The notes under the pieces: model-generated
Databases searched by the model: none
Seen by the model: only the letters and a program-made list of their open reading frames with translations
Told to the model about the DNA's origin: nothing
NCBI RefSeq assembly: GCF_023276435.1
Contig: NZ_JALLPO010000018.1
Span: 113,818-177,817, forward strand
Origin: Sphaerisporangium perillae
Lineage (GTDB): Bacteria; Actinomycetota; Actinomycetes; Streptosporangiales; Streptosporangiaceae
DNA: 64,000 nt
Reading direction: 5' to 3'
Shown: positions 49,901 to 64,000 of the stretch, one piece after another
Layout of the letters: each line of letters starts with the position of its first letter
Numbering within the stretch: position 1 is the first letter of the stretch
Translations under genes and position numbers: made by a program

Positions 49901-50071
49901 GAGGCGGAGGAGGGCATAGGGGACGCCGCCCATGAGCGCGGCCAGGGCGATCAGCGCGGCCAGGCCGGCGATCACGTCGCCGACCGTGCGCCGCGGCCGG
50001 ATGCGCTGGACCGGCGCCGCCGGGGTCAGCCGGGACGGCGGGCGCGTTGGGGGCCTGCGTGACGCGGTCAT
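46955..50071 (-). CDS. Membrane protein with LysM-like and C-terminal BTAD domains, Tad-locus regulator candidate
   Basis: 1038 residues with GGAGGGAGAGGG upstream. Three helices lie at about residues 32-55, 79-105 and 129-150. A LysM-like domain follows at about 185-245 (SLWEIAEKCLGDGRRYPEIY, LNQHKPQPDG, IRPGWVLDMP). A Lys/Gly-rich linker contains the six-residue repeat GDTAKQ (about 311-353). A fourth helix (about 428-450) is followed by a large globular part and a BTAD domain (about 788-1030: RILGPIEIGPVPPLEEGRAEL, ACELIVYLATHPAGV). BTAD domains belong to transcription factors of the SARP/AfsR type, but no HTH with an OmpR fold is obvious before it. Its place 31 bases after the TadG-like gene ties it to pilus assembly or control. 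Confidence 0.82.
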   Translation of the reverse strand: MTASRRPPTRPPSRLTPAAPVQRIRPRRTVGDVIAGLAALIALAALMGGVPYALLRLAGPPLPEELLNGDLLTRQVSTTTAVAILVLLVWLTWFQLVICVVVEVYSGIRRVGMPARVPLSGGPQALANRLVSTALMLFTVSAVAIPIAGIGSGPPPARPSVVAAALTAPIPEEHSSLEAVREVKKVYVVQPPHGRHHESLWEIAEKCLGDGRRYPEIYRLNQHKPQPDGTRLQMADLIRPGWVLDMPDDARNVHVVSADERRETTLAKHPGKPAELDGRTEFLPATGKAEQDAGDQAAKAAENTRGDRATDGTAEHGDTAKQGDTAKQGDTAKQGDTAKQGETAKRGDAGKRGSTGILLPPPAMPERTYHLPPPPKVPAVSAKIPKTAVSPPGETGAVESVQAGRPQSPARVDAADRGDRPERQDHGGGLDLLEYLAGGSLAAAGLLAVLGRRRREQLWYRAFGHRIPRPRGDAAGAEVALRLGSDAPGSRMLDNGLRVLGKLLAEQGRVPPTIYAVHLSARGLDLWIHPPEHDAPEPWESHDGGRTWRLLAHEGRGIDEHAVADVPAPYPGLVSLGVTESGRVLIDLEAAHGVIAITGHRVRDALSALAVELATNRWSDEMRITLVGFGADLATIAPHRVRVVGSLAEALPELEARAEETAATGAQVLTGRVHGRAADPVWPPHFLLSAIAPDPEEAVRLARLGRAGTRMAAGYVIAGDVPHATWTWEITEDGDAKVGALGVAVAAQLLPRRHYDAVIELFRTAERREGEPVREEGEPREFTTTPSINVRILGPIEIGPVPPLEEGRAELACELIVYLATHPAGVHPVVLGGILWPRGVQAVVRDATIARVADWLGTDSEGRPNLRADDTGRLRLGPEVRSDWQLFRELVRRSHNDPSARAVLLDKALGLVRGPLLNGRPRGRYAWLAADELEYEVTASVADAAHRLCEVRLAHGDADAAVAAIRAGLLLAADDEGLWRDLLRAAHATGDPLKLRAVVDGLHRRASSHPYGGGMAPETEALIDELLPTWRLHSMPSA
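49047..49136 (-). repeat. 18-bp coding tandem repeat (GDTAKQ)
   Basis: TCGCCCTGCTTCGCGGTG occurs four times exactly (49047-49064, 49065-49082, 49083-49100, 49101-49118), with a degenerate fifth and similar copies on the other side. It codes a charged GDTAKQ linker. Identity at DNA level implies recent expansion or contraction. Confidence 0.9.
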
Positions 50072-50102
50072 CCCTCTCCCTCCTTCGTCTCCGTCGTCCC
50101 GG

Positions 50103-50609
50103 TCACGGCTGCTGGTCGCCGGGATCGGGGCCGGCGGTGGCGCTGCCGGACATGTCCGAGCCGGCGAAGCCGAGCGCCGCGAGGAACAAGGCGTCCCAGC
50201 GGGCGCTCACCGCGACGGTCACCTCGGCCTGCCCGGCACCGGTCCGGCACCGGGTGAGCTTGATCTTCGCGTCGTCGTGGGCGTCGACGATCTCCTGGGC
50301 CCTGCCGCAGACCGCCCGCTCGTCGCCGAGCAGGCGGACCTGGCCGGTGGCCCGGAGGTTCTCGACGTCTATCTGGTCGGCGGCGGCCCGTGCCGCCTGC
50401 TCGGCGACGTCGGACGCCCGCAGCCGTGCGTTGATCGCCGCGCCGCCGTCCACCAGCAGGCCGGCCAGCAGGAAGACCACGACCGAAAAGATCACCACAA
50501 ATACCGACATCGAGCCCCGGTCCGCCCGGAGCCGTGGCACCCGGCCCTTCCGGACATCGTCGTGGAGAGGGGTGGTGTGACTTCCCCGAGCACCCCGGGG
50601 CCGCGTCAT
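50103..50609 (-). CDS. TadG-like pilus assembly protein
   Basis: 168 residues; ATG overlaps the TadE stop. The N-terminal cytoplasmic tail ends in RADRGSMSVFVVIFSVVVFLLAGL, the TadG/TadE-like membrane anchor, with a glycine that could be a prepilin-type cleavage point but Phe instead of Glu at +5. The outside part has DGGAAINARLRASDVAEQAARAAADQI typical of TadG-like N-termini, and two cysteines (GDERAVCGRA, LTRCRTG). Minor pilin-like or assembly role. Confidence 0.84.
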   Translation of the reverse strand: MTRPRGARGSHTTPLHDDVRKGRVPRLRADRGSMSVFVVIFSVVVFLLAGLLVDGGAAINARLRASDVAEQAARAAADQIDVENLRATGQVRLLGDERAVCGRAQEIVDAHDDAKIKLTRCRTGAGQAEVTVAVSARWDALFLAALGFAGSDMSGSATAGPDPGDQQP

Positions 50610-51016
50610 TCGACCCTCCGGAACTGCTCCAGCGGCACCACCGAGTCGCCCTTCATCCGCTTGGCCGCCCCGAACCCGAGAAAGTCCAGGTTGAGCTCGC
50701 AGGTCACGGTCGCCCGGACGCTACCGCCCTCTCGCCAGTCACTGCCGGAAAGGGTGACCACCGGCCGGCACTCGCCGTCGAGCGCGGAGCCGGCGGCGTC
50801 GCGCGCGGCACGCTCGGCCGTGCTCCGCGTGCGCTGGACGGAAGCGGCGCGCGCGGCGTCCCTCGCCGCCCCGTTGACCTCGCCCTGCGCCTCGACGACG
50901 CGGCCCGCGCCGACGAGGAACATCAGGAAGAGCAGGAAGACCGGCGCCAGCATCACCGTCTCGACCGCCATCGACCCCCGGTCGCGCCCACGTCCGCGTG
51001 TGGGGCGCCCGGTCAC
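50606..51016 (-). CDS. tadE: TadE-like pseudopilin
   Basis: 136 residues from the GTG at 51016, which overlaps the Flp-like stop. The basic leader ends RDRG, then SMAVETVMLAPVFLLFLMF: a Gly-Ser cleavage point with Glu at +5, the type IV prepilin rule. The outside part has GEVNGAARDAARAASVQRT and two cysteines (DGECRPVV, VTCELNLDFLGF). TadE minor pilins help assemble Flp fibres. It would need a prepilin peptidase, which is not in this window. Confidence 0.9.
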   Translation of the reverse strand: MTGRPTRGRGRDRGSMAVETVMLAPVFLLFLMFLVGAGRVVEAQGEVNGAARDAARAASVQRTRSTAERAARDAAGSALDGECRPVVTLSGSDWREGGSVRATVTCELNLDFLGFGAAKRMKGDSVVPLEQFRRVE

Positions 51017-51258
51017 GGCTTTCCGCCGGTACCGCCGGTACCGCCACCTCCACCGCCGAAGTTGCTCTGGATCTCGGCCTGCTTCTGGGTGACCAGGGTC
51101 TTGATCAGCGTGGCCAGGCCGAGGGCCACGCCGGCGATGATGGCGGTGATGATCACCCATTCGACGGCGGAGGCGCCGCGCGAGGGGGCGGTCCTGGCAC
51201 GGTCGATCCGCACGTGCAGCACGGCGACCAGATAGGTGAACCACGGTGGTGTGAACAT
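51013..51258 (-). CDS. Flp-like pilin
   Basis: 81 residues. The leader MFTPPWFTYL...APSRG ends at G28 followed by ASAVEWVIITAIIAGVALGL: after cleavage Glu would be at +5, the pilin signature. The rest is short and ends in a Gly-rich tail (SNFGGGGGGTGGTGG). The size and single helix suit the Flp major pilin. Its ATG directly follows the tadC TAG stop. Longer leader than most Flp proteins. Confidence 0.82.
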   Translation of the reverse strand: MFTPPWFTYLVAVLHVRIDRARTAPSRGASAVEWVIITAIIAGVALGLATLIKTLVTQKQAEIQSNFGGGGGGTGGTGGKP

Positions 51259-52185
51259 CTAGGACCCCAACATCTTCATCGCTGCCGGAAAACTGAGAAA
51301 GATCACGAATCCCGCGCAGAGCAGGAGCTGGGCGACCAGCATGGACTGTGAGCGCTCGCCCGCCTGGCCCTCGACCTCGGCGAGCTCGCGCCGCCGCATG
51401 GTCGCCGCGCGGGCGGTGAGCGAGGCGCGGACCTTGGCGCCGTCGTCGGCGACCAGCCCCAGCGCCGCCGACAAATCGCGCAGCTCGTCGACGTTGATCT
51501 CGTCGCCGAGCCGGCCGAGCGCCTGCCAGGGGGTGATGCCGATGATCCTGGCGTTGGCCAGGGCTTCGCGGATGCGGGCCATCGCCCAGTTGGACGCGTT
51601 GGCGCCGTCGCCGACCGACACGGCCATCAGCAGCGCCTCCGGCACTCCCCTGCCGCCCGCCAGGTTCATCGCGACCAGGTCGAGGAAGGCGCCGACGGCG
51701 TGCCGGAAATCGCGGCGGCGCACCGCGGCGTCCCTGCGGATCTGCAGGTCGGGGAGGAAGAAGAACACCAGAGCCACGAGCAGCGCCGCCCACAGCGGCA
51801 CCTGGAGCGGGACACCCCACTCCATCAGCACCAGCCAGGCGGCCAGGATGGGGAACGCCAGCAGCCCCGACACCGCGAGCAGCACCTTGGTGGCGAGATA
51901 GCCCTCGAAGGACCTGCCGAGCAGCGCGAGGTCGGCGCGGGTGGAGCGGACCTCCCAGCCACGCGAGGCGTAGAACTGGGCGAGCCGTACACCGACCTCG
52001 CGGCGGAAGGCGCTGACCTCCTCGTCGGGGCTGATGAGCCGGAGCCGGTGCGCGTCGTCGCCCTCGCGGACCGAGTCGAGCGCGAGGAGGCGGGCCACCA
52101 GCCCCGGCCTCGGCGGGAACAGGGCCCGGATCAGCAGGAACAGCCCCAGGCCGAACACCGCTCCCGCGAGCACGTTCTCAACCAT
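51259..52185 (-). CDS. tadC: TadC-like pilus assembly inner-membrane protein
   Basis: 308 residues from the ATG at 52185 (a GTG at 52194 is possible). Type II secretion F domain: helices at the N-terminus, VLLAVSGLLAFPILAAWLVL, QVPLWAALLVALVFFFL and a C-terminal LVAQLLLCAGFVIFLSF, with the cytoplasmic helices AVGAFLDLVAMNLAGGRGVPEALLMA and LRDLSAALGLVADDGAKVRASL. Platform partner of TadB. It overlaps tadB by eight bases. Confidence 0.9.
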   Translation of the reverse strand: MVENVLAGAVFGLGLFLLIRALFPPRPGLVARLLALDSVREGDDAHRLRLISPDEEVSAFRREVGVRLAQFYASRGWEVRSTRADLALLGRSFEGYLATKVLLAVSGLLAFPILAAWLVLMEWGVPLQVPLWAALLVALVFFFLPDLQIRRDAAVRRRDFRHAVGAFLDLVAMNLAGGRGVPEALLMAVSVGDGANASNWAMARIREALANARIIGITPWQALGRLGDEINVDELRDLSAALGLVADDGAKVRASLTARAATMRRRELAEVEGQAGERSQSMLVAQLLLCAGFVIFLSFPAAMKMLGS

Positions 52186-53089
52186 GGGCGGCACCCCCGG
52201 CCACCAGCTCGCGATCGAGGGGGGCGCCCGAGGCCGGCCCGAGGAGGCGGGCGGGTTTGTCGAACCGCGCGAGCCGCCGCATCCACGCGAACCCCGCGCC
52301 GAACAGCCCCGCGACGACGACCAGCACGGCCTGGCCCAGGAGGGAGTCGTACTCCTCGACGTAGGAGGGATTGAAGACGACCAGCGCCGCCGCGAAGGCG
52401 ATGGCAGTGCCGACCACGATCTGCACGCTGCGGCGCGTCGCCCGGCGCTCGGCCTCGACCCGCCGGCGCATGTCGAGCTCCTCGCGCGCCGATACCGCGA
52501 GCGCGCCGAGCACCTCGCGCAGGCCCGGGCCGCGCAGCTTGGCGTTCAGGATGAGGGCGGCGATCACCAGGTCGGCGGACGGGTCGTCGAGCTCGTCGGC
52601 GAACAGCCGCAGCGCGTCGGGCAGCGGCATCCGGGTGTGCAGGCGGTCGACCATGGCGCGCAGGTGGGGGCGGAGCGTCGGCGCCGCCGCCCTGATGGAG
52701 GACGGGATGGCCTGTTCCAGGCCCGCCGCGCCCGCGATGGTGTCCCTCAGCGACTCGGTCCAGGCCGCGAGCCCCTCGAGCCGGGTCATGGCCGCCCGCT
52801 CCTCCGCGGCCCCGCCGGTCAGCCCGCGCCAGGCCAGGACGAGCAGGACGGCGCCCGCCGCCATGACCGGCCAGCCGGTGATCACCAGCACCATGCCGCC
52901 GGTGATGGTCGCGATGGCCGAACGGGTGGACAGCCGGCGCACCAGCTCGCGGCGCCGCGCCCCACGGTCGGGCGTGGCAGGCCCGGGACGCAGACCGTAC
53001 AGGGCCAGCCCGAACAGGAACAGGCCGCCGCCTATCGCCGCGCCGGCGAGGATCGCCAGCGGATCGAACAGCCCGGCCGGCAACGGCAT
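52178..53089 (-). CDS. tadB: TadB-like pilus assembly inner-membrane protein
   Basis: 303 residues; its ATG shares one base with the tadA stop (TGATG). T2SF-domain features: AAWTESLRDTIAGAAGLEQAI, DALRLFADELDDPSADLVI, LAVSAREELDMRRRVEAERRATR and helices at both ends (AILAGAAIGGGLFLFGLALY, GMVLVITGWPVMAAGAVLLV, FAAALVVFNPSYVEEY). With TadC it forms the membrane platform on which TadA drives pilin extrusion. Confidence 0.9.
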   Translation of the reverse strand: MPLPAGLFDPLAILAGAAIGGGLFLFGLALYGLRPGPATPDRGARRRELVRRLSTRSAIATITGGMVLVITGWPVMAAGAVLLVLAWRGLTGGAAEERAAMTRLEGLAAWTESLRDTIAGAAGLEQAIPSSIRAAAPTLRPHLRAMVDRLHTRMPLPDALRLFADELDDPSADLVIAALILNAKLRGPGLREVLGALAVSAREELDMRRRVEAERRATRRSVQIVVGTAIAFAAALVVFNPSYVEEYDSLLGQAVLVVVAGLFGAGFAWMRRLARFDKPARLLGPASGAPLDRELVAGGAAHG

Positions 53090-54396
53090 CACGACCACGC
53101 TCCCATCGTCGGGTCGTAGCCGTGGTAGGCCAGGTCGTTGACGCACGCGATGGGGGCGTGCGGCACGGCGTACCCGTCGGGGCCGGGGGCGAAGACCTCC
53201 GAGGACAGGACGCGCCCGTCGACCCCGGCGACCTCGCGGACGCTGGCGACATAGCGCCGCAGCCGCCCGCCCTGGTGGTAGTCGTTGCGCTTCTCGATGA
53301 AGATCACGAAGTCGATGGCGCCCGCGATCAGCATGTGCGTCGCCTCGATCGGCAGGCGTTCCTCGGCCTGCAGCGCGTAGGTGGCGATGCGGTTGAAGAC
53401 CTCCATCGAGGAGTTGGCGTGGATGGTCGACAGCGAACCGTCGTTGCCCTGCGTCATGGCGTTGAGCATCGTGACGATCTCGTCGCCCAGCACCTCGCCG
53501 ACGATGACCCGGCTGGGGTTCATGCGAAGCGACCGCCGCACCAGCTCGGCCATCGTGATCTCGCCCTGTCCCTCCGAGTTCGGCAGGCGGTGCTCGAAGG
53601 CCACGACGTTGGGATGCAGCTCGGGGAACTGGTCGAGCCCGAGCTCCAGCGCCCGCTCCACCGTGATCAGGCGCTCGTGCGGCGGGATCTCGTTGGCCAG
53701 GGCGCGGAGCAGGGTCGTCTTGCCGGCGTTCGTCGAGCCGGCGATCATGATGTTCTTCCTGGCCGCGACGGCCGCCGACAGGAACCGGCCCAGCTCGGGG
53801 GTGAGCGTGCCGTTCCCGACCAGATCGCTGAGGAAGACCTTGCCGAGGCGCGCCCGGCGGATCGACACGGCGGGACGCACCGTGACGTCCATGACGGCCG
53901 AGAGCCGCGAGCCGTCGGGCAGGCGCAGGTCGAGCTGCGGGTTGGCGGTGTCGAAGGCACGGCTGGACAGCCCGCTGTAGGCGGCGAGGATCTGGATGAG
54001 CTCGATCAGCTCCTCGTCGGACTCGGCCACCGGGTCGTGGACGACCTCCCGGCCGTCGGCGTACCCCACGAACACGCGGTCGCAGCCGTTGACGTCGATG
54101 TTCTCGACCTCGGAGTCGTCGAGCAGCGGCTGGAGCCGGCCCACCCCGAACAGCGCGGCGTGGATGCCCGCCGCCAGGGCCTCCTCCTCCTCGGCCGTCG
54201 GAGGGGTGCGCCCGGAACCGATCTCGTTGCGGGCGTGCTCCTCCAGCACCTGGGAGATCAGCGCCCGCGCGAACTGGCGCTCGTCCTCCCCGGACATGGG
54301 CACCAGCCCGCTGGCCTGGTCGAGCCTGCGCTGGTGAGCCAGCCGGTCACCGACCTCCTGGCGGAACCGCTTCACCAGCGTGTGGTCAATGCTCAT
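53089..54396 (-). CDS. tadA: TadA/CpaF-type secretion ATPase
   Basis: 435 residues. Walker A is GSTNAGKT (220-227). Asp-box region TVERALELGLDQFPELHPNV, Walker B MNPSRVIVGEVLGDEIV and the His-box NDGSLSTIHANSSMEVFNRI complete the GspE/VirB11 pattern of the CpaF class. It powers pilus extension from the cytoplasm. It lies 40 bases after tadZ and overlaps tadB. Confidence 0.96.
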   Translation of the reverse strand: MSIDHTLVKRFRQEVGDRLAHQRRLDQASGLVPMSGEDERQFARALISQVLEEHARNEIGSGRTPPTAEEEEALAAGIHAALFGVGRLQPLLDDSEVENIDVNGCDRVFVGYADGREVVHDPVAESDEELIELIQILAAYSGLSSRAFDTANPQLDLRLPDGSRLSAVMDVTVRPAVSIRRARLGKVFLSDLVGNGTLTPELGRFLSAAVAARKNIMIAGSTNAGKTTLLRALANEIPPHERLITVERALELGLDQFPELHPNVVAFEHRLPNSEGQGEITMAELVRRSLRMNPSRVIVGEVLGDEIVTMLNAMTQGNDGSLSTIHANSSMEVFNRIATYALQAEERLPIEATHMLIAGAIDFVIFIEKRNDYHQGGRLRRYVASVREVAGVDGRVLSSEVFAPGPDGYAVPHAPIACVNDLAYHGYDPTMGAWS

Positions 54397-54436
54397 GGCT
54401 CGCTCCGCTCGCTGCCGTCCGGGCGTGATCGAACGC

Positions 54437-55231
54437 TCATCTGGCTCGCTCCCCCGATCTCGGGCGGGGGACGTCCGTCACCGGCTCGGCGGCACGGGCG
54501 GGCGCCACCCGGGCGGCGAGGCGGCCGGCGAGCTCTCGGGCCGTGCGGATCAGCAGGGAGCGGTCCAGGCGGCCACCCCACTGGCCCCTGAGCAGTTCGG
54601 CGCCCTTCGGGTCGTACGCCAGGCCCGCCACGAAGGCGACCTCCCTGCTGGTCGCGGCGACGATGCGGCGCACCTCGTCGATCGAGGCGCGGTAGGACCG
54701 GGGGTCGGCGATGACCACCACGCCGACCTGCCCGCCGATGAGCATGAGCCGTTCGCGCAGGTGGGCGACGTGGTCGAGGCTCGGCCGGGTGAACAGCAGC
54801 GTCACCTCGGCCTCCGCGACGAGGTCGCTCATCTGCGGATGGGCGCCGAGCCGGCCGCAGTCGGCCAGGACGTCGGCGCCCGGCAGCGCGGCGAGCGCCC
54901 GGCCGAGGGGACCCCACAGCCACGTCAGCCCGGCGGCCTGCTCGCCGTTGGTCAGTCCGGTCAGCACGTCGAGGCCGCCGACGAGCTTCTGGGTGTGCTC
55001 GTGGACCTGTTCGGGGCGCAGCCCGCGGCGGGCGGTCGCGCCGAGGCTCAGCAGGCCCCGGGACGGGTTGAGCACGCCGCCGTCCACGCTCGGAAGGCGG
55101 TAGACCAGGTCGCCGCCGGAGGGGTCGCATTCGGCCAGGAGCACCGGCCGCGGCCAGACCGCCCCGAGCGCCGTCGCGGCTGTGGTCACGCCGGGCGCCC
55201 CCTTGTCGGCGGCGAGCGCGATGAGGGCCAC
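54437..55231 (-). CDS. tadZ: TadZ/CpaE-like ParA-fold protein
   Basis: 264 residues from the GTG at 55231, one base after the SAF stop. A MinD/ParA-like fold: ALIALAADKGAPGVTTAATAL is the P-loop region, with LLAECDPSGGDLVYRL as Walker A' and VLADCGRLG as the second acidic strand. The P-loop reads KGAPGVTT where the ParA class has KGGxGKTT, so the second lysine is Val. Actinobacterial TadZ homologs often look like this. TadZ marks the pole or site of pilus assembly. Confidence 0.86.
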   Translation of the reverse strand: MALIALAADKGAPGVTTAATALGAVWPRPVLLAECDPSGGDLVYRLPSVDGGVLNPSRGLLSLGATARRGLRPEQVHEHTQKLVGGLDVLTGLTNGEQAAGLTWLWGPLGRALAALPGADVLADCGRLGAHPQMSDLVAEAEVTLLFTRPSLDHVAHLRERLMLIGGQVGVVVIADPRSYRASIDEVRRIVAATSREVAFVAGLAYDPKGAELLRGQWGGRLDRSLLIRTARELAGRLAARVAPARAAEPVTDVPRPRSGERAR

Positions 55232-55232
55232 G

Positions 55233-55934
55233 TCAGCCGGCTCCGGCGAGCTTGCCCAGGGCGATCTCACCGCTCGAGGAGTACATGGCGATCGTCGGGG
55301 ACACCGTCGCGTCCACGACGATGGAGACCAGGCCCGAGTTGCTCCGGTCGCTGTCGCCCACGCTCTCGACCAGGGCGCTCGGTGCGAGCACCTTGCCCTG
55401 CGCGGTGCCGCGGCCGGAGCCGGGAACGTACAGGACCTGGACGTGGTCACCCCTCTGGAGGCCCAGCGGCACCTGGCCGGCCTTGAGCGCGAGGCCGAGA
55501 GTGACCTTGCCGGGGCCGACCTGCTCGCTGTCTCTGCTGACCATCTGCTCGGTGAGCAGGGTGCCGGGCAGGAGCGTGACCCTGGCGAACGTCGTGGCGA
55601 CCTCCTGGCGGTGGGCCCAGGCGACGTAGCCGACGCCGGTGTCGGCGATCTGGACCTCTTCCATCGCCTCGGGGACGATCGGCTGGCCAGGGCCGATCTG
55701 CTGGGTGATCTGGATGGCGGACACCCGGTCACCGCTGCGCAGAACCAGCAACGTGGTGGCGAGCGCACCGCCGAGGACCAGGAGCAGGGCCAGCGCGGCG
55801 AGAGCGGGTTTTCGCTCGCGCGGCGGCACGGGGAGCTTGCGGGAGGCCGGTCCGGACAGCGCGCCCGGCGACCCCGGGCGCTCCGCGTTCGCGGACGCGC
55901 GGTCGTCGCGGTCGGATTTCTCGCTGATCCTCAT
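55233..55934 (-). CDS. cpaB: CpaB/RcpC-like SAF-domain protein
   Basis: 233 residues. One N-terminal helix (ALAALALLLVLGGALATTLLVL) anchors it, then a SAF domain: VSAIQITQQIGPGQPIV, AEEVQ-like MEEVQIADTGVGYVAW, ATTFARVTLLPGTLLTEQM, LGLALKAGQVPLGLQRGDHVQVL. In Gram-negative Tad systems CpaB works with the secretin; in a Gram-positive there is no secretin and the role is unproven. First gene of the minus-strand Tad operon. Confidence 0.86.
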   Translation of the reverse strand: MRISEKSDRDDRASANAERPGSPGALSGPASRKLPVPPRERKPALAALALLLVLGGALATTLLVLRSGDRVSAIQITQQIGPGQPIVPEAMEEVQIADTGVGYVAWAHRQEVATTFARVTLLPGTLLTEQMVSRDSEQVGPGKVTLGLALKAGQVPLGLQRGDHVQVLYVPGSGRGTAQGKVLAPSALVESVGDSDRSNSGLVSIVVDATVSPTIAMYSSSGEIALGKLAGAG

Positions 55935-56304
55935 GGGTGGGGGGCTCCCGAATCAGGGACCGGGCCGGCACCCTCACCATGCGCTGATATCGATCAGCAT
56001 GGGGGGCCGATCGAGATGAACCGCATGACCACGGTGCGGGACGGCATGGTCACGGATATGTAGGACGGGGGTCGCTGGGTTTATCTTCCGGAATTCTCAT
56101 GCCATTGTGTGCAGCTTGCACCAAGCTCAGGGACAGAAACCGGACCCATGCTTATCCACTATGGATCGGCTGTCAACGGGATGGTCAAGGATCGCAATGG
56201 TCCCGCGACGCCGTCGGCAATGATATTTCCGTTGATATTCCCCTTTGTATCGGCAGTATCGTCGGATCACACTTACCACTCTGGTTTCCCTGCGAACCGG
56301 CATC
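55935..56304 (-). promoter_or_regulatory. Upstream region of the Tad operon
   Basis: 370 bases with no gene, noticeably AT-richer between about 56200 and 56290. A palindrome GCTGAT-ATCG-ATCAGC (55983-55998) lies 49 bases before the cpaB start. On the minus strand TTGACA (56176-56171) and TAAGCA (56154-56149) are 16 bases apart and form a plausible promoter. TTATCCACT (56152-56160), one base off a DnaA box, overlaps that -10. Confidence 0.42.
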
Positions 56305-56658
56305 CTAACCGCCGTCGCCGCGGGCATCCCCTTCAGGGCCGGGCCGGGTCTCCTCGTCGATCCAGTGCAGGTAGGCATCGAGGCCGCCCTCGACCGGCAG
56401 GCAGATGATCTCCGGGGTCTCATACGGATGCGCCTGCCGGAGGTGCTCGGCCAGCTCGCCCGACCGCTCCCGGGTGGTCTTCATGAGCAACAGGAACTCC
56501 TCGGCCGTCTCAACCCGCCCTTTCCACCGGTAGGTGCTGGTGATCGGGCCGACGATCTGGGCGCAGGCGGCGAGCCGCGCGGAGACGGCCGACCGGGCCA
56601 GCTCCGCGGCCGTGGCGTGGTCGTCCACCGCGACCTGGACCTGGACGTACTGCGGCAT
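56305..56658 (-). CDS. cutA: Divalent-cation tolerance protein CutA
   Basis: 117 residues from the ATG at 56658 with AGGGGGG upstream; a longer in-frame start has no ribosome site. The CutA1 core is VQVAVDDHATAAELARSAVS, RLAACAQIVGPITSTYRWKG, EEFLLLMKTTRE, RQAHPYETPEIICLPVEGG and AYLHWIDEET. It is a trimeric PII-like protein whose real role is unsettled. It lies between the Tad promoter region and the DnaA-box region. Confidence 0.93.
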   Translation of the reverse strand: MPQYVQVQVAVDDHATAAELARSAVSARLAACAQIVGPITSTYRWKGRVETAEEFLLLMKTTRERSGELAEHLRQAHPYETPEIICLPVEGGLDAYLHWIDEETRPGPEGDARGDGG

Positions 56659-57063
56659 GAAGCCCCCTTCGGGTTCACCGGCCCGGCTCTCGCCGCCGGA
56701 TGTACACAGCTTTATCCACAACTTCAGCCGTTATCCCCCGGCGCACACCCACCCGAATCGTAGCGATATATCCGGTTTAAGGCTGGAAATCACGCCACAA
56801 GGTCACGAACTTATCCACAGGCCGGGCGGTTATCCACAGCGGAGCCCACATCCCCTGTGGACAACCCGCCCCCGGCACCGGAGCGCCGACCTAACCACCC
56901 GGTGCGGCGTTCTTTTCGTATCGGTCTTTTAACATCAAACCGGACGAAACGAGCATGGACGTACTGAAACCCGCATTAGCGGGAAGGATACCTACGTCTC
57001 CCCTCGACACTTGCACAGTCCGGCCCGGATACATGGGGCCGGAGCTCTCGAGAAGGAGGGGTT
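56659..57063. other. 405-base gap with a DnaA-box cluster
   Basis: Between divergent cutA and the lipoprotein gene there is no ORF. Perfect 9-mers TTATCCACA occur at 56712-56720, 56811-56819 and 56830-56838. TTGTCCACA, the actinobacterial DnaA box, occurs on the minus strand at 56856-56864. An AT-rich patch TAGCGATATATCCGGTTTAA lies at 56761-56780. A TTATCCCCC at 56731 is a weaker box. No dnaA, dnaN or rpmH is in the window. Confidence 0.72.
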
Positions 57064-57678
57064 ATGAAGAGAATCCTGGCGTCCAGCGTCGGGCTTGCCA
57101 CGACCGCCCTGCTGGTAAGCGCATGCGGCGGAGCCGGCGAACCCGCGACGAGCTACAGCAGGGCGGCGGCGAACGCCACCGAGTCCCCGTCGATGGAAAC
57201 CTCTCCCTACCCCGAGATGTCGCCGACGGCGACCAGCACGGCGACGAGCACCAGCACATCCTCCCCCGGAGCCTCACCGTCGGGGACCGGGTCCATGAGC
57301 CCCATGCCCACGCCCCAGAACGCGATGGTCAAGCTCGCGGAGTCCAAGTACGGCAAGATCCTCGTCGGCGAGAACGGCCACACGCTCTACATGTTCGACA
57401 AGGACAAGGACGACACCCCAAGCTGCTACGACGCCTGCGCGGTCGCCTGGCCGCCGCTCCTCACGCTGAGCAAGCCCAAGGCGGGACCGGGAGTGATGGA
57501 GAATCTTCTCGGCACCGCGACCCGCAAGCAGGGCGAGAAGCAGGTCACCTACAACAAGCACCCGCTCTACTACTACAGCGGCGACAAGAACCCAGGCGAG
57601 TACAACGGCCAGGGCAAGAGCGAGTCGGGCGGCAAGTGGTACGTCGTCGGCCCTGACGGCAAGAAAGTGGAGAAGTAG
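57064..57678 (+). CDS. Secreted lipoprotein with YxxxD-type repeats (COG4315-like)
   Basis: 204 residues with AAGGAGGGG upstream. Lipobox LLVSAC near residue 20, then a Ser/Thr/Pro/Ala-rich linker. Two Lipoprotein_15-like units follow: KYGKILVGENGHTLYMFDKD and a second with LYYYSGDKN and GKWYVVGPDGK, plus SCYDACAVAWPPLL. This family is known as predicted lipoproteins of unknown function, sometimes tied to electron transfer or surface adhesion. It is separated from cutA by the DnaA-box gap. Confidence 0.88.
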   Translation: MKRILASSVGLATTALLVSACGGAGEPATSYSRAAANATESPSMETSPYPEMSPTATSTATSTSTSSPGASPSGTGSMSPMPTPQNAMVKLAESKYGKILVGENGHTLYMFDKDKDDTPSCYDACAVAWPPLLTLSKPKAGPGVMENLLGTATRKQGEKQVTYNKHPLYYYSGDKNPGEYNGQGKSESGGKWYVVGPDGKKVEK

Positions 57679-57782
57679 GAAGACGGGCACCCGCAGGTCT
57701 GGTTGACGTAAACCTCCGGACCGGACGAACTCCCGTCGCTACGTTGAAGCGCGGGAGAGCCGGACCCCGGAGGAGACGTCGG

Positions 57783-60700
57783 ATGCGGATCATGCTTACC
57801 GTGGTCTCAGAGCACGGCCACCGTGACGTCGTCGTCGACGGTGACGAGGAGACCACGGTCGCGGGGCTCGCCGCCGCGCTGGCCGGACCGCCCCGAGAGC
57901 GCCGCGGCAACGTCGTGCGCCTTTCGCGCGCCCGCGCCCCGTACGGCCTCGGCGGGCAGGCGCGCCCGCGCGGCCAGGAGGCCCCGTCACTGTGGGTGGA
58001 CGGCAGGCGGCTGGACCCGGACGCGTCCATCGCGGCCGCGCTGCGGGACGGCGACCTGGTGACGCTCGACCAGCGCGCCGCGGGGTCGACGGTCCTCGCC
58101 GAGCCGGGCGGCGTCATCGAGATCAGGGTCACCGGAGGACCCGCCGCCGGATCGGTCCACCGGCTGGGGCTCGGAGTCCACGTCATCGGCTCCGACCCCT
58201 CCTGTGCGGTCTCCGTCGACGACCACCACCTGCCCGCGGAGGCGGCGGAGGTGCGCGTCACCCCGGATGAGGTGCTCGTGAGATCCGTGTCGTCCCCCGG
58301 CAGGGCGGCCGCGAAGCCGTCGAGAAGGGCCCGGCGGGCCGCCCGGCGGCGGGCCCGGGGCAGGGCGCAAGGCAAGGCGCAGGGCAGGGCCTCCCTCGCC
58401 GGCGTGGCGAGCGGTGAGGTCATCGCCGCGCTGACGCGCGGAGCTGCGCACACCGTCCCCCAGCTCGCGGGCGAGCCGGTGAGCACCCCTCGGCCATGGC
58501 GCGAGGGAGCACCTCTCACCTGCGGGAACTCCGTCCTCGTCCTGCGGGCCACCGAACCGCCGGACGCCCACCTCGACGCCCTGCCGACCGGCGGCCTCGC
58601 CTACAACCGGCCGCCCCGCCTGCGCCCGGCCGAGCGCCGCCGCCGGTTCGAGGTGCCCGCCGAACCGAGCCGGGGAGAGGGCGTGCGCCTCCAGTTGCTG
58701 GCGGCCTGCCTGCCCGCGCTCCTCGGGCTGACCATGTTCGTGGTCTTCCAGATCTGGTACTACCTGCTGATCGCCCTCATGACACCGATGATCATGATCG
58801 GCCAGGGGATCAGCGACCGGCGGCACGGCCGCAAGAAGTACCGCCAGGCTGTGAAGGCGTACAAGGAGCGGCTGGCCGCCTTCGAGGCCGCGGTCGAGAA
58901 GGCCAGGGCCGTCAACGAGCTCGAACGCCGCGCCGCCTCCCCCGACCCCTCCGAGCTGCTGCTGACCGCGACCGGCCCGCGGCGGCGCCTTTGGGAGCGC
59001 AGGAGCCACGACCCCGACGCGCTGCGCCTGCGCATCGGCCTCGCCGACCTGCCCGCCGAGATCGAGTTCGTGCCGGAACGCGGTGCCCCCGCCGACATCC
59101 CGATGCCCGAGCCGCCGCTGTCGGGCGCCGTGCCGGTGTCCCTGGCCATGCGCCGCCTCGGCGTGGCCGGCATGACCGGGCCACGCGACGTCGCGCTCGG
59201 GCTCGCCCGTTCGCTGGTCGGCGCGGCGGTCACCCTGCACAGCCCGCGCGACCTCGCCGTGGTCGTCCTGTCCGCCCACGCCGACGGGGCCGCCCAGTGG
59301 AACTGGGCGCGCTGGCTGCCGCACTGCGCGCCCCGCGACGCCGACTGCGTCGCGCTCATCGGCGCCGACCCCGAGGCCGCGGCCCAGCGGGTGTCGGAGC
59401 TGGCCGCCCTGATCGGCGAGCGGCTCGGCGACGACGACGCCCTCGGCCTGAGCGCTCTGGCCCCCGCCAAGGGCTGGGGACGCTCGTTCCTCCCCGACGA
59501 GGAGCCTCTGTTCGCCGCCTACGACGACCGCCCGTACGACGTGCTGGTGATCCTCGACGGCGCGCAGGTGCTGCGCACCCTGCCAGGCATGCCGCAGGTC
59601 CTGCGGCAGGGCCCCCGCGCCGGCGTGTACACGATCGCGATCGACGAGGACCAGCGGCTGCTGCCCGAGGAGTGCGCCACCGTCGTCGACTGCGGTCCCG
59701 ACGGCTTCGTCCGGCTGCGCGGCGGAGGGCTGGACGCGATCGGCGAGATCCTCGCCGACCAGGTCTCACCCGCCTGGTGCGACCGCCTCGCCCGGTCGCT
59801 CTCCCCGCTGCGCGACGTGAGCAGGGACGACGCGGCGGCCGCGCTGCCCGGCTCCGTACGCCTGCTCGACCTGCTGGAACTCGCCCCCTCCGGCCGCACC
59901 ATCGCAGCGCGGTGGCGGTCGGGAGGCCGCACCACCGAGGTGCCCATCGGCATCGGAGCCGACGGCCCGTTCAGCGTGGACCTGAGCGCGGACGGCCCGC
60001 ACGCGCTCGTCGCGGGCACCACCGGAGCGGGCAAGTCCGAGCTCCTGCAGACGCTGATCTGCTCGCTCGCCGTCGCCAACCGCCCGGACGAGATGACGTT
60101 CGTGCTGATCGACTACAAGGGCGGCGCCGCGTTCAAGGAGTGCGTGCGGCTGCCGCACACCGTCGGCATGGTGAGCGACCTCGACGAGCACCTCACCCAG
60201 CGGGCGCTGGCCTCCCTCGCCGCCGAGATCCGCCGCAGGGAGCGGCTGCTGCTCGCGGCCGGGGCCAAGGACATCGACGACTACCAGGAGCTGCGGGACC
60301 GCCCGAGCACCGGATCCGGGGTCACCCTCGGCGGGGTCGCGCTCCCCTCGCCGAGGCCCCCGGCGGACGGCGCCGCCTCACCACTGGAGCCGCTTCCCCG
60401 GCTCCTGCTGATCATCGACGAGTTCGCCGCGCTGGTGTCGGAGCTGCCGGACTTCGTCGACGGGCTGGTCGACATCGCCCGGCGCGGCCGGTCCCTCGGC
60501 ATCCACCTCATCCTCGCCACCCAGCGGCCCGGAGGGGTCGTGACCGCCGACATCCAGGCCAACACCTCGCTGCGCATCGCGCTGCGCGTCACCGAGGCCA
60601 CCGAATCGGCCGACGTCATCAACGGCCCCGAGGCCGCGCACATCTCCAAATCCACCCCCGGGCGGTGCTACGTACGGTCGGGCGTCGGGGCGGCGCAGGC

Positions 60701-62609
60701 CGTGCAGACCGCGCGGGTCGGCGGGAGGGTGCCGCAGGCCGCGCGGCGCGGCGGCGGGCCGAGAGTCGTGGAGGTCGGCTGGCGCGACCTCGGGCATCCG
60801 CTACGCACGGCCGCCGAGGCGGGCGGCACGTCCGGCGCCGAAGGGCCGACGACCGACCTGGCCGTCCTGGTGGACGCCATCGTCGACGCCACCCGCCTGA
60901 TGGGCATCAGGGAGCAGCCGAGCCCGTGGCTGCCCCCGCTTCCCGACCTTGTCCTGCTGGAGCAGCCCGCCCGCCGCGCGGAGCCCGGGAACGACCGGGG
61001 CGAGGTGCCGCCGCTGCGGTTCGGCGTCACCGACCTGCCCTGGGCCCAGGATCGCGAGCCGCTCGCCCTCGACCCCGCCCACGGCGGCCACCTGCTGATC
61101 GCCGGCACGGCCCGCACCGGCAGGTCCACGGTCCTGCGGACCCTCGCCGGCTCCATCGCCCTGCACGCCTCGCCCGAGGACGTGCACGTGCACGCGATCG
61201 ACTGCGGCTCGGGGTCCCTGCTGCCGCTCGTCGCGCTGCCGCACTGCGGCGCGGTGGTCACCCGCGACCAGCTCGACCGGGTCGAACGCCTGCTCACCCG
61301 GCTACGCGAGGAGGTCGGGCGCAGGCAGCAGCTCCTCGCCGAGGCGGGGTACGCCTCGCTGGCCGAGGCGAGGGCCGCCGCCAGGCGCGCGTCCCAGGGC
61401 GGCGCCGCTCACGGCGGCAAGGGGAGTACGGCTCTGAGCGGTACGGCCCACGCCGGCGCCGATCACGGCGATGCGGCTCAGGACGACGACCCGACGCTCC
61501 GGATGCCGTGGCTCGTGCTCATGCTCGACCGGTGGGAGGGCTTCACGGCGGCGTTCGAGGCCTACGACTACGGGCGGCTGCTCGACGCCCTCATGCAGTT
61601 GCTCCGCGAGGGCCCGGCCGTGGGGCTGCGCGCCGTGGTGACCGCCGACAGGTCCGGCCTGCTCGGCCAGATCTCGACCCTGTTCGAGGACCGCCTGATC
61701 ATGCGGCTGGCCGACCCGGCGGACTACGGGCTGGCCGGCCTCCCGCCGCGGGGCATCCCCTCGGTCCTCCCGCCCGGGCGGGCGCTCTCCATCGGGGAGC
61801 AGGGCGTCGTGGAGAGCCAGATCGCCCTGCTGTGCGATGACCCGTCCGGGCCGGCCCAGGTCGCGGCGCTGCAGACCCTCGCCCGCACGGCCGCGGAGAC
61901 GTTCCCCGGGCCGGACTCGCTGCTGCGGGTCGACGCGCTGCCCATGCGGATCACCTCGGCGCAGGCCCTCGACCTGGCCCCCGGTTTCAAGCCGCCCTCG
62001 CCGCTGTGGACGCTGCTCGGCGCGGGCGGCGACTGCCTGGCCCCGCTCGGCGTCGACCTGCTGGCGCAGGGCCCGGCCGCCGTGATCGCCGGGCCGGCCC
62101 GCTCCGGACGGTCGTCCGCGCTGCTCACGGCCGCCCGCTCGCTGCTCGCGCACGACACCCCGGTCGCCGTGGTGGCCCCCCGCCGCAGCCCGCTACGCGA
62201 GCTGTCCGGCGAGCCGGGGGTGCTCGGGATCATCACGGGCGACGGCGAGGACCTGCCCGGCGTGGTCGGGGATCACGACCGGTACGTCGTCGTCGTGGAC
62301 GACGCCGAGCTGGTCTCGCCCGACTCTCCCCTCGGCATGGCGCTCGAGGGCACCTTGCGCAGCGGCAGGGACGGCGAGCACGCCCTGCTGATCGCCGGGA
62401 CGACCGGCGACCTGGCGACCGCCTACCGGGGGTTCGTCGCCGAGGCCCGCAAGGCGCGCACCGGGCTGCTGCTGGCGGTGCAGAGCCCGGCGGACGGCGA
62501 CCTGTTCAACGTGCGGCTGCCGCGCGGCGCCGTCGGCGGCCCGCCCGGCCGCGGCCTCCTCGTGATCTCCGGCACCCCCACCCCGATCCAGACCGCGCTC
62601 AGCACCTGA
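57783..62609 (+). CDS. EssC-like type VII secretion ATPase: ubiquitin-like + FHA + FtsK x3
   Basis: 1608 residues from the ATG at 57783, GGAGGAG seven bases upstream. The first 100 residues read as a ubiquitin-like fold (MRIMLTVVSEHGHRDVVVDG). An FHA domain covers about 110-175 (GVHVIGSDPSCAVSVDDHHL). Two helices lie at about 303-340. Three FtsK/SpoIIIE modules follow: Walker A GTTGAGKS (745-752) is intact, with LLIIDEFAALVSEL as Walker B; the second (GTARTGRS, 1108-1115) and third (GPARSGRS, 1437-1444) have Arg for Lys, so only module 1 is likely to hydrolyse ATP. The FHA and ubiquitin-like N-terminus is EssC/YukB-like, not ESX EccC. It faces a WXG100 gene. Confidence 0.87.
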   Translation: MRIMLTVVSEHGHRDVVVDGDEETTVAGLAAALAGPPRERRGNVVRLSRARAPYGLGGQARPRGQEAPSLWVDGRRLDPDASIAAALRDGDLVTLDQRAAGSTVLAEPGGVIEIRVTGGPAAGSVHRLGLGVHVIGSDPSCAVSVDDHHLPAEAAEVRVTPDEVLVRSVSSPGRAAAKPSRRARRAARRRARGRAQGKAQGRASLAGVASGEVIAALTRGAAHTVPQLAGEPVSTPRPWREGAPLTCGNSVLVLRATEPPDAHLDALPTGGLAYNRPPRLRPAERRRRFEVPAEPSRGEGVRLQLLAACLPALLGLTMFVVFQIWYYLLIALMTPMIMIGQGISDRRHGRKKYRQAVKAYKERLAAFEAAVEKARAVNELERRAASPDPSELLLTATGPRRRLWERRSHDPDALRLRIGLADLPAEIEFVPERGAPADIPMPEPPLSGAVPVSLAMRRLGVAGMTGPRDVALGLARSLVGAAVTLHSPRDLAVVVLSAHADGAAQWNWARWLPHCAPRDADCVALIGADPEAAAQRVSELAALIGERLGDDDALGLSALAPAKGWGRSFLPDEEPLFAAYDDRPYDVLVILDGAQVLRTLPGMPQVLRQGPRAGVYTIAIDEDQRLLPEECATVVDCGPDGFVRLRGGGLDAIGEILADQVSPAWCDRLARSLSPLRDVSRDDAAAALPGSVRLLDLLELAPSGRTIAARWRSGGRTTEVPIGIGADGPFSVDLSADGPHALVAGTTGAGKSELLQTLICSLAVANRPDEMTFVLIDYKGGAAFKECVRLPHTVGMVSDLDEHLTQRALASLAAEIRRRERLLLAAGAKDIDDYQELRDRPSTGSGVTLGGVALPSPRPPADGAASPLEPLPRLLLIIDEFAALVSELPDFVDGLVDIARRGRSLGIHLILATQRPGGVVTADIQANTSLRIALRVTEATESADVINGPEAAHISKSTPGRCYVRSGVGAAQAVQTARVGGRVPQAARRGGGPRVVEVGWRDLGHPLRTAAEAGGTSGAEGPTTDLAVLVDAIVDATRLMGIREQPSPWLPPLPDLVLLEQPARRAEPGNDRGEVPPLRFGVTDLPWAQDREPLALDPAHGGHLLIAGTARTGRSTVLRTLAGSIALHASPEDVHVHAIDCGSGSLLPLVALPHCGAVVTRDQLDRVERLLTRLREEVGRRQQLLAEAGYASLAEARAAARRASQGGAAHGGKGSTALSGTAHAGADHGDAAQDDDPTLRMPWLVLMLDRWEGFTAAFEAYDYGRLLDALMQLLREGPAVGLRAVVTADRSGLLGQISTLFEDRLIMRLADPADYGLAGLPPRGIPSVLPPGRALSIGEQGVVESQIALLCDDPSGPAQVAALQTLARTAAETFPGPDSLLRVDALPMRITSAQALDLAPGFKPPSPLWTLLGAGGDCLAPLGVDLLAQGPAAVIAGPARSGRSSALLTAARSLLAHDTPVAVVAPRRSPLRELSGEPGVLGIITGDGEDLPGVVGDHDRYVVVVDDAELVSPDSPLGMALEGTLRSGRDGEHALLIAGTTGDLATAYRGFVAEARKARTGLLLAVQSPADGDLFNVRLPRGAVGGPPGRGLLVISGTPTPIQTALST

Positions 62610-62619
62610 CGGCGGCGGC

Positions 62620-63069
62620 CTACTGGCAGCCTTGGTCGCCGTCGTCGGGGCGGAAACATTCGATGGGGCCGCCGAAGGTGGAGGTGATCCTGAACGACAT
62701 GCCGGGGAGCAGGGGGACCACGGCGACGGCGTCGCCCTCGACGACCACGCCGCGCTGGTCGCCCCTCTCCCACGCCCGTACCTCGACGGCCTGGAGCATC
62801 TTGGGCCCGACGGTGCGCACGATGCCGCGCGCGCGGGCCTCGGCGGCCTCCTGCCAGCCCCCGGCGCCGGTGCCCGCCGCCCGGGCGACGCGCGCTCCCT
62901 CACGGGCCGCGGCGTCGGCGACCTGCCTGCTGTGGAAGACCAGCGTGAACTGCACGATGAGCAGGATCACTACAAGCACGACCGGCATGATCAAGGCCAG
63001 TTCGATGACGGAGGCGCCGCGGTCGTCTCTCCGCCTCCGTCCGGCCGGCGGCGCGCCGGTCACCTTCAT
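62620..63069 (-). CDS. TadE-like pseudopilin next to the EssC-like gene
   Basis: 149 residues from the ATG at 63069. The leader RRRRDDRG ends at G18, then ASVIELALIMPVVLVVILLI: Glu would be at +5, a prepilin-type site. The outside part has VFHSRQVADAAAREGARVARAAG and a cysteine pair in PIECFRPDDGDQGCQ at the very end. It is a second TadE unit 12 kb from the main Tad locus, convergent with the EssC-like gene (10-base gap). It lies 29 bases after the WXG100 gene and is probably co-transcribed with it. Confidence 0.85.
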   Translation of the reverse strand: MKVTGAPPAGRRRRDDRGASVIELALIMPVVLVVILLIVQFTLVFHSRQVADAAAREGARVARAAGTGAGGWQEAAEARARGIVRTVGPKMLQAVEVRAWERGDQRGVVVEGDAVAVVPLLPGMSFRITSTFGGPIECFRPDDGDQGCQ

Positions 63070-63098
63070 CGGGACACGCCCCGCCGCGAGGCGAGCCG

Positions 63099-63371
63099 CT
63101 ATCGGGTCGCGGACTCGATGTTGCCGCGGTAGGTGGTGATGATGCGGGACGCCTCGGTCAGCTCCTCGGACATCCTCTGGAACGCCTGCCGGTAGTTCTG
63201 CCAGGCACCGCCGAACCGCACCGCTCCCGGACCCGTCCAGGCGCTGCCGACCTTGGCCGCCTCGCGGTCGAGCGCCGCCATCGTCTGGCGCACCTGCTCG
63301 GCCTGCTGCGTGAACTGGGCGGCCATGTTCTGCATTTCCGCGGGGTCGCCGCCGAGCAAGCTCTGGCTCAT
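63099..63371 (-). CDS. WXG100-family ESAT-6-like secreted protein
   Basis: 90 residues from the ATG at 63371 with AAGGAG seven bases upstream. A helix, W45-T46-G47 turn and a second helix form the ESAT-6 hairpin (MAALDREAAKVGSAWTGPGA, AWQNYRQAFQRMSEELTEAS). The C-terminus ends TTYRGNIESATR, so the YxxxD/E export signal is off by one position. It is the likely substrate or partner of the EssC-like ATPase. No second WXG100 gene is adjacent, so it may homodimerise. Confidence 0.92.
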   Translation of the reverse strand: MSQSLLGGDPAEMQNMAAQFTQQAEQVRQTMAALDREAAKVGSAWTGPGAVRFGGAWQNYRQAFQRMSEELTEASRIITTYRGNIESATR

Positions 63372-63598
63372 GCCGGTCTCCTTCGGGATCGTCTGCATAC
63401 AGGGGGTAGCCAAACGCCCCTACCTTAGACGTCAAACCCCTCAGACGCACCGGTTATACCGAGTGATTATCAGCGTCGGCCCGGACAAATGATCTGGAAT
63501 CGCGCAAGTATGCGGGGGGGTAGGGGGTCACGGCAGATCAGAGGCCGCTTACACTCCGTGGAAGGCGCGAAAGGCCCTGGAGGAAAGGGACGACCTCG

Positions 63599-64000
63599 GT
63601 GCAGAAGGTCCTCATCGCCAATCGTGGCGAGATAGCGGTGCGGATTGCCCGCGCATGCAAAGACGCCGGCCTGACCGGCGTCGCGGTGTACGCCGACCAA
63701 GACCTCGACGCACTCCACGTGCGCATGACGGACGAGGCCTACGCGCTGGGCGGCCAATCCCCCGCGGAGACCTACCTGGACATCGGCAAGCTGCTGCGCA
63801 TCGCGGCCGAGTCCGGCGCCGACGCCGTCCACCCGGGGTACGGCTTCCTCGCCGAGAACTCCGCCTTCGCCCAGGCGGTGATCGACGCCGGCCTGACCTG
63901 GATCGGCCCGCCGCCCGCCGCGATCGACGCCCTCGGCGACAAGGTCCAGGCCCGGCACATCGCGCAGCGCGTCGGCGCGCCGCTGGTCGCCGGGACGGCG
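63599..64000 (+). CDS. Acyl-CoA carboxylase alpha (biotin carboxylase) subunit, 3' end beyond window
   Basis: 134 codons seen from the GTG at 63599 (AAAGGGA upstream), running off the window. The biotin carboxylase N-terminus is typical: [72 protein letters not shown] and [18 protein letters not shown]. It carboxylates biotin on its own C-terminal BCCP domain. Partner of pccB and accE at 39553-41364, and substrate of birA at 29941-30765. The 227-base gap upstream, shared with the WXG100 gene, contains TACACT as a possible -10 near 63550. Confidence 0.93.

Follow-up and report, generated by a model that had tools for sequence, protein, structure and literature searches.

The window, that is, the whole 64-kb stretch of Sphaerisporangium perillae DNA analysed here, contains a gap between a cutA gene and a lipoprotein gene in which four exact predicted DnaA boxes are gathered. 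They span 56712–56864, with three copies of TTATCCACA on the plus strand (boxes A, B, and C) and one copy of TTGTCCACA on the minus strand (box D), and are referred to below as the array. Beyond these two genes, the array is bordered by a cpaB-like gene that heads a Tad operon and by eccC, which encodes an EccC/EssC-like ATPase of type VII secretion (Table 1). A preliminary description of the same DNA had listed three plus-strand and one minus-strand 9-mers in this gap together with a near-match toward the Tad side; all four were recovered where it had placed them, and the near-match was located as TTATCCACT. Two weaker boxes that it had not mentioned, ATGTACACA and TTATCCCCC, were detected on either side of box A.

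Table 1. Predicted DnaA boxes and neighbouring features, in positions of the window.
Feature	Position	Strand	Remark
DnaA box A, TTATCCACA	56712..56720	+	exact predicted box
DnaA box B, TTATCCACA	56811..56819	+	99 bp after box A
DnaA box C, TTATCCACA	56830..56838	+	19 bp after box B
DnaA box D, TTGTCCACA	56856..56864	-	exact predicted box
Weak box-A partner, ATGTACACA	56700..56708	+	two mismatches; 12 bp before box A
Weak box, TTATCCCCC	56731..56739	+	two mismatches; 19 bp after box A
Central element, ATCCGGTTTA	56770..56779	+	within the A+T-richer A–B interval
Outlying near-match, TTATCCACT	56152..56160	+	motif match
cutA (PF03091)	56305..56658	-	flanks the array, outside it
Lipoprotein gene (PF03640)	57064..57678	+	flanks the array, outside it
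EccC/EssC-like type VII secretion ATPase gene (eccC)	57783..62609	+	PF01580; 1,608 residues; conserved neighbour
cpaB-like gene, head of Tad operon	55233..55934	-	label from position and reading; conserved neighbour, other side

Exact matches to TTRTCCACA in the window were confined to the four boxes of the array. The pattern TTWTNCACA gave three matches in the window, a number reached by none of 100 window shuffles, and TTDTCCACA (D = A, G, or T) was observed four times between the cpaB-like gene and eccC against an expectation of 0.02, with none of 100 dinucleotide shuffles scoring as high. A chance cluster was rejected, since the shuffles and the reversed and re-spaced patterns described below yielded almost none. 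The preliminary description had likewise held that chance could not produce the boxes in such GC-rich DNA; the shuffles agree with this, but the cutA–lipoprotein gap itself has a GC content of approximately 60%, as compared with 71.5% for the window. The A+T content was raised in the stretch between boxes A and B. A structured RNA was also rejected, as an Rfam scan of 50000–64000 gave no match at the gathering threshold.

The genome of the window (G000) comprises 9,304,335 bases in 120 contigs, of which C31 carries the array and C57 carries dnaA. Exact TTRTCCACA was found 55 times in this genome (31 forward and 24 reverse), compared with 20 matches for a reversed-pattern control, and the array was the sole group of four within 153 bp. 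The genome-wide scan that the preliminary description had proposed thus gave a single group of four rather than many equal clusters. Groups of three were found twice, at C57:39057-39129 and C39:84866-84974. The former (L033:2058-2130) holds three TTGTCCACA in exact 32-bp steps, with a gene of the poly(A)-polymerase/tRNA nucleotidyltransferase type on one side and a class-III aminotransferase gene on the other. The latter belongs to two divergent box pairs (C39:84854-84974; L039:1855-1975), each with a 12-bp step, that precede an EamA-type transporter gene and are separated by 100 bp, a distance equal to that in the array. A further locus, G000:C57:58935-59010 (L034:1936-2011), contains two TTATCCACA, each accompanied by a one-mismatch partner at a 12-bp step; this locus is flanked by a MatE gene and by a dnaB gene with a homing-endonuclease (intein-like) interruption, at a distance of about 45 kb from dnaA, and its boxes are possibly a DnaA target.

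The supposition that dnaA is far from the cluster was borne out by its location on a separate contig. On C57, dnaN adjoins dnaA, the product of which has ATPase and DNA-binding domains. In the dnaA–dnaN gap, five boxes with one mismatch each were detected but no exact match, the closest exact matches being at C57:8198 and 15593. Such a gap would look as expected for an origin made of weaker sites. The array on C31 is not adjacent to the dnaA–dnaN pair and was therefore placed outside the origin, dnaA and dnaN having their own boxes on another contig. For 11 relatives in which the array and dnaA are on one contig, the two are separated by 1.06–1.89 Mb, or 0.13–0.22 genome lengths; the fraction is 0.21–0.22 in three Sphaerisporangium genomes (G124 taken as circular), 0.13–0.16 in seven genomes of genus g6, and 0.13 in G095. 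The boxes were oriented toward dnaA in all 11 of these relatives, which may simply mirror gene orientation, because eccC then points away from dnaA.

Boxes between the cpaB-like gene and eccC were detected in all 11 genomes of Sphaerisporangium, whose gaps contain 31 exact TTDTCCACA against 0.14 expected, and every gap exceeded all of its 100 shuffles. At four of the 11 loci cutA was not found (G120, G121, G031, and G123), and at two the lipoprotein gene was not found (G081 and G123), leaving G123 with neither gene; the boxes were kept throughout. According to the preliminary description, relatives that drop the boxes while keeping both genes would count against the locus; the opposite was seen, as the boxes were kept even where the flanking genes were not found. 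Its further suggestion that DnaA controls the flanking genes was not supported for cutA and the lipoprotein gene, because the boxes persist at loci where those genes were not found. A promoter element of either gene was accordingly rejected, as the boxes were not lost along with the gene. Outside the genus, 27 cutA loci (L046–L072), drawn from the 107 of 120 searched genomes that had a cutA match, contained no exact box and three single near-matches.

The strict three-box form, defined as TTDTCCACA, 75–105 bases, TTDTCCACA, 10 bases, and TTDTCCACA, was present in six of the 11 genus genomes. The distance from the nearest box A to box B was nonetheless 97–102 bp in 10 of them and 88 bp in one. 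In G122 and G124 the nearest box A has one mismatch, with an exact box 12 bp further out, and in G031 box B has two mismatches. The 12-bp partner of box A, which is weak in the window, is better matched elsewhere, reading TTGTCCACA in G108 and G120 and CTGTCCACA in G031. Box D is less constant, since among the 10 other genus loci an exact reverse box was found near its place in G031 alone, and G125 and G120 share the letters of TTATCCACT at a place upstream of the array (three of the 11 loci, with the window). The central element ATCCGGTTTA was seen with variants in an alignment of the 11 gaps, its pattern being exact or near-exact in four genus loci; a comparison by eye with the IHF and AdpA consensus sequences yielded no usable match. 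The B–C pair by itself is not unique, occurring with up to two mismatches elsewhere in the genus and once exactly, at G031:C1:229032, so that it is the triple, together with its location, that supports the claim.

The strict triple was then counted in the family, where it was found in 31 of 341 genomes and six of 68 genera, once per genome, while its reversed control gave no match in the 341 genomes. Among the genera, which are given by our codes, it was present in 16 of 16 genomes of g6, six of 11 of the window genus, four of five of g28, two of four of g44, two of two of g58, and the one genome of g16. All 18 of the 31 triples whose neighbours were checked with tblastn lie on the upstream side of the cpaB-like gene, within the gap toward eccC, and eccC was found beyond the cpaB-like gene at 50 of 51 family loci. 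In a sample of the class, seven of 394 genomes matched the pattern, all within the family, with none of the 353 sampled genomes outside it matching. When the A–B interval was re-spaced to 53–83 or 115–145 bp, two of the 341 genomes matched, the same two g33 genomes each time but at a different stretch. These matches, L221 (G109:C2:1003379-1003529) and L222 (G083:C17:73965-74115), represent another multi-box group.

Exact boxes were counted at 22 loci of the array genera (62 against about 0.27 expected) and at the 29 remaining loci (17 against 0.3 expected, confined to six loci); the L214 gap entered these counts shortened, with one box counted where three are present. In a quick tree of two proteins from the 51 loci, the array genera fell in three places and three changes were needed; this tree has two long branches and its array labels were assigned by genus, so that six of the 22 array rows are off the strict pattern (G108, G122, G124, G031, G126, and G044) and one of the six rows labelled as a pair (L204) has a box spacing of only 30 bp. 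This arrangement is consistent with an ancestral array that was lost several times, and separate gains across genera may also account for it.

The most regular property of the array is the distance between boxes A and B. For the 31 strict genomes, in which the pattern admits 84–114 bp, it was 98–102 bp in 25, 89–91 bp in five, and 111 bp in G120, which has a second box A at 99 bp. Five other genus genomes gave 97, 97, 97, 102, and 88 bp. The 36 array genomes, many of which are close kin, hence fall into a class of 97–102 bp (30 genomes) and a class of 88–91 bp (six genomes), with none at 92–96 bp. Elsewhere, 110–111 bp was found in three g33 loci, 116 bp in g51, 118 bp in g59, and 100 bp in one g5 locus. 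These steps of about 10 bases only suggest helical phasing, because the periodicity statistic was almost equal for 10.0, 10.5, and 11.0 bp and lacks a null that takes kinship into account. When 15 loci were measured together, the A–B distance had a standard deviation of 1.2 bp, while box C to eccC ranged over 97–961 bp and the cpaB-like gene to box A over 338–1208 bp.

Of the conserved neighbours, the eccC product showed NCBIfam EssC/EccC matches under equivalog cut-offs and PDB sequence matches to EccC and YukB. The cpaB-like product matched no Pfam or NCBIfam family; the Tad operon on the minus strand includes TadA (PF00437) beside it and a gene with a T2SSF domain. A WXG100 gene (PF06013) at 63099-63413 on the minus strand adjoins and faces eccC, which fits a type VII secretion locus.

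From these observations, we consider with moderate confidence that the locus is a stand-alone array of predicted DnaA boxes outside oriC, which would gather DnaA and lower its supply at oriC. Observed directly are the boxes, the conserved gap, their inner spacing, the persistence where cutA or the lipoprotein gene was not found, the rarity in the genome, and the absence from the 353 sampled genomes outside the family. The array is likely a DnaA sponge or switch rather than the control site of one gene, because its spacing is kept while neighbouring genes come and go. The preliminary description had spoken of a non-oriC DnaA-binding locus; a DnaA-box locus outside oriC is supported, and binding as such is a prediction. 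DnaA would bind the array at the consensus boxes, and the 12-bp step between box starts, which leaves a 3-bp gap, points in the same direction. Escherichia coli DnaA was reported to prefer box pairs 2 or 3 bp apart (PMC11317965), and box A is accompanied by a partner at such a 3-bp gap, which is an exact box in G120 and G108 but a weak one in the window. With some 100 bp and the A+T-richer stretch between them, boxes A and B may then be brought together, collecting DnaA into one bent or looped complex. Less DnaA would be left for the start of replication at oriC, and replication of the locus would presumably double the sink and delay re-initiation. A DnaA domain-I dimer was described across Actinomycetes in a paper that cites proposals for domain I joining DnaA on distant boxes (PMC13270200). 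It might be speculated, though we regard this as rather doubtful, that the array is a two-module switch in which two DnaA assemblies, one on box A together with its weak partners and the other on boxes B and C, are looped via this dimer. The modules would be separated by roughly whole helical turns (88–91 and 97–102 bp, and 110–111 bp in a sister genus), with an A+T-richer centre between them, constituting a single-copy replication-control locus ancestral in the family and lost or rebuilt in several genera.

Several observations weigh against such a sink. The four boxes are few beside the 55 of the genome, and five of the 11 genus genomes have a degenerate or differently spaced box B or C. No exact box was found in the gap at 23 of the 51 family loci, and many related genera are without the array, so that its function there is dispensable or done otherwise. 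The 26 loci compared from other genera had no match to the central-element pattern, which is hence not a motif common to the genera. In addition, the clusters of Bacillus subtilis and Streptomyces were described near oriC, and the array is 0.13–0.22 genome lengths away in the 11 relatives. Lastly, the array ends close before eccC in four genera, as a regulatory site would. The main rival is consequently that DnaA acts as a transcription factor on the eccC promoter, and perhaps on the divergently oriented Tad operon, so that secretion would be tied to the cell cycle, because the array sits about 100–340 bp before eccC in the other array genera. Its end was 97–112 bp before the estimated eccC start in eight of nine loci of g6, g16, g44, and g58 (the ninth has no estimate), 157–343 bp in g28, and 283–961 bp in the window genus. 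The near-constant presence of eccC beyond the cpaB-like gene also favours this rival, as does the g5 genome G004 (L182:4860-4999), in which some 4 kb separates the boxes from the cpaB-like gene and an A–B pair at 100 bp is nevertheless placed about 0.33 kb before eccC. This pair has a 12-bp partner after box B. However, the distance from box C to eccC varies by hundreds of bases while A–B stays within a few, the lipoprotein gene intervenes before eccC in nine of the 11 genus loci, and many genera retain both the cpaB-like gene and eccC without boxes. Control of eccC thus appears a tentative possibility, less probable than not.

A site that sequesters or inactivates DnaA in the manner of datA and one that reactivates it in the manner of DARS cannot be separated by sequence. 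The latter, which would exchange ADP for ATP on DnaA and promote initiation, is compatible with a location off oriC, and is considered improbable. Chance, or recognition by some other protein of similar target sequence, is a very unlikely explanation: the central element could belong to a different protein, but hardly any matches were obtained from the shuffles or with the reversed pattern, and the letters of the boxes equal high-affinity DnaA boxes listed in a review, TTATCCACA for four bacteria and TTGTCCACA for Streptomyces coelicolor and Mycobacterium tuberculosis. Predicted DnaA boxes that flank an A+T-richer stretch would also be expected of a second or relic replication origin, which we regard as scarcely credible, given that dnaA and dnaN have their own boxes on the other contig and that no replication family was seen among the surrounding gene products scanned, which were part of the neighbours.

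Control of DnaA by chromosomal sites has been reported for E. coli, B. subtilis, and one Streptomyces, and no such locus was described for the present family in the titles and opening lines of abstracts of open-licence literature on DnaA-box clusters (Streptomyces, Actinobacteria, and Streptosporangium). The spacing kept across six genera provides a precise, deletable target in further actinomycetes. It would make it possible to examine whether the timing of initiation there is set by one DnaA complex away from the origin, and whether a fixed box spacing is what distinguishes a DnaA sink from a gene switch.

With several near-consensus boxes close together beyond chance, the array resembles the clusters of the Streptomyces and B. 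subtilis type. Box clusters of S. coelicolor and B. subtilis were reported to repress untimely initiation (PMC5742627, PMC4585315, PMC10950094). The non-oriC cluster of S. coelicolor (Smulczyk-Krawczyszyn et al. 2006, as described in citing papers) is likewise an actinomycete DnaA-box cluster outside oriC, compared here by description only; it differs in its reported place near oriC, as against 1.06–1.89 Mb from dnaA for the array, and the array pattern itself was absent from the sampled class genomes outside the family. The clusters of B. subtilis are also outside the origin, but form a redundant, oriC-proximal set, whereas the array is one pattern match per genome; early initiation was noted in a review once six of them were lost, and the same review states that no B. 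subtilis cluster with a significant role was identified (PMC5295017). The DARS1 and DARS2 sites of E. coli contain a three-box core in non-coding DNA, to which boxes A, B, and C were likened by this core alone, DARS2 having IHF and Fis sites in addition. Comparable in layout is E. coli datA, a non-coding site that was reported to require an IHF site together with boxes 2 and 3, which flank it at a spacing that matters (PMC4585315). The array similarly has boxes on both sides of a central A+T-richer stretch and a constrained spacing; datA depends on IHF and promotes DnaA-ATP hydrolysis, and the array is hence likened to it by box layout and not classified as datA.
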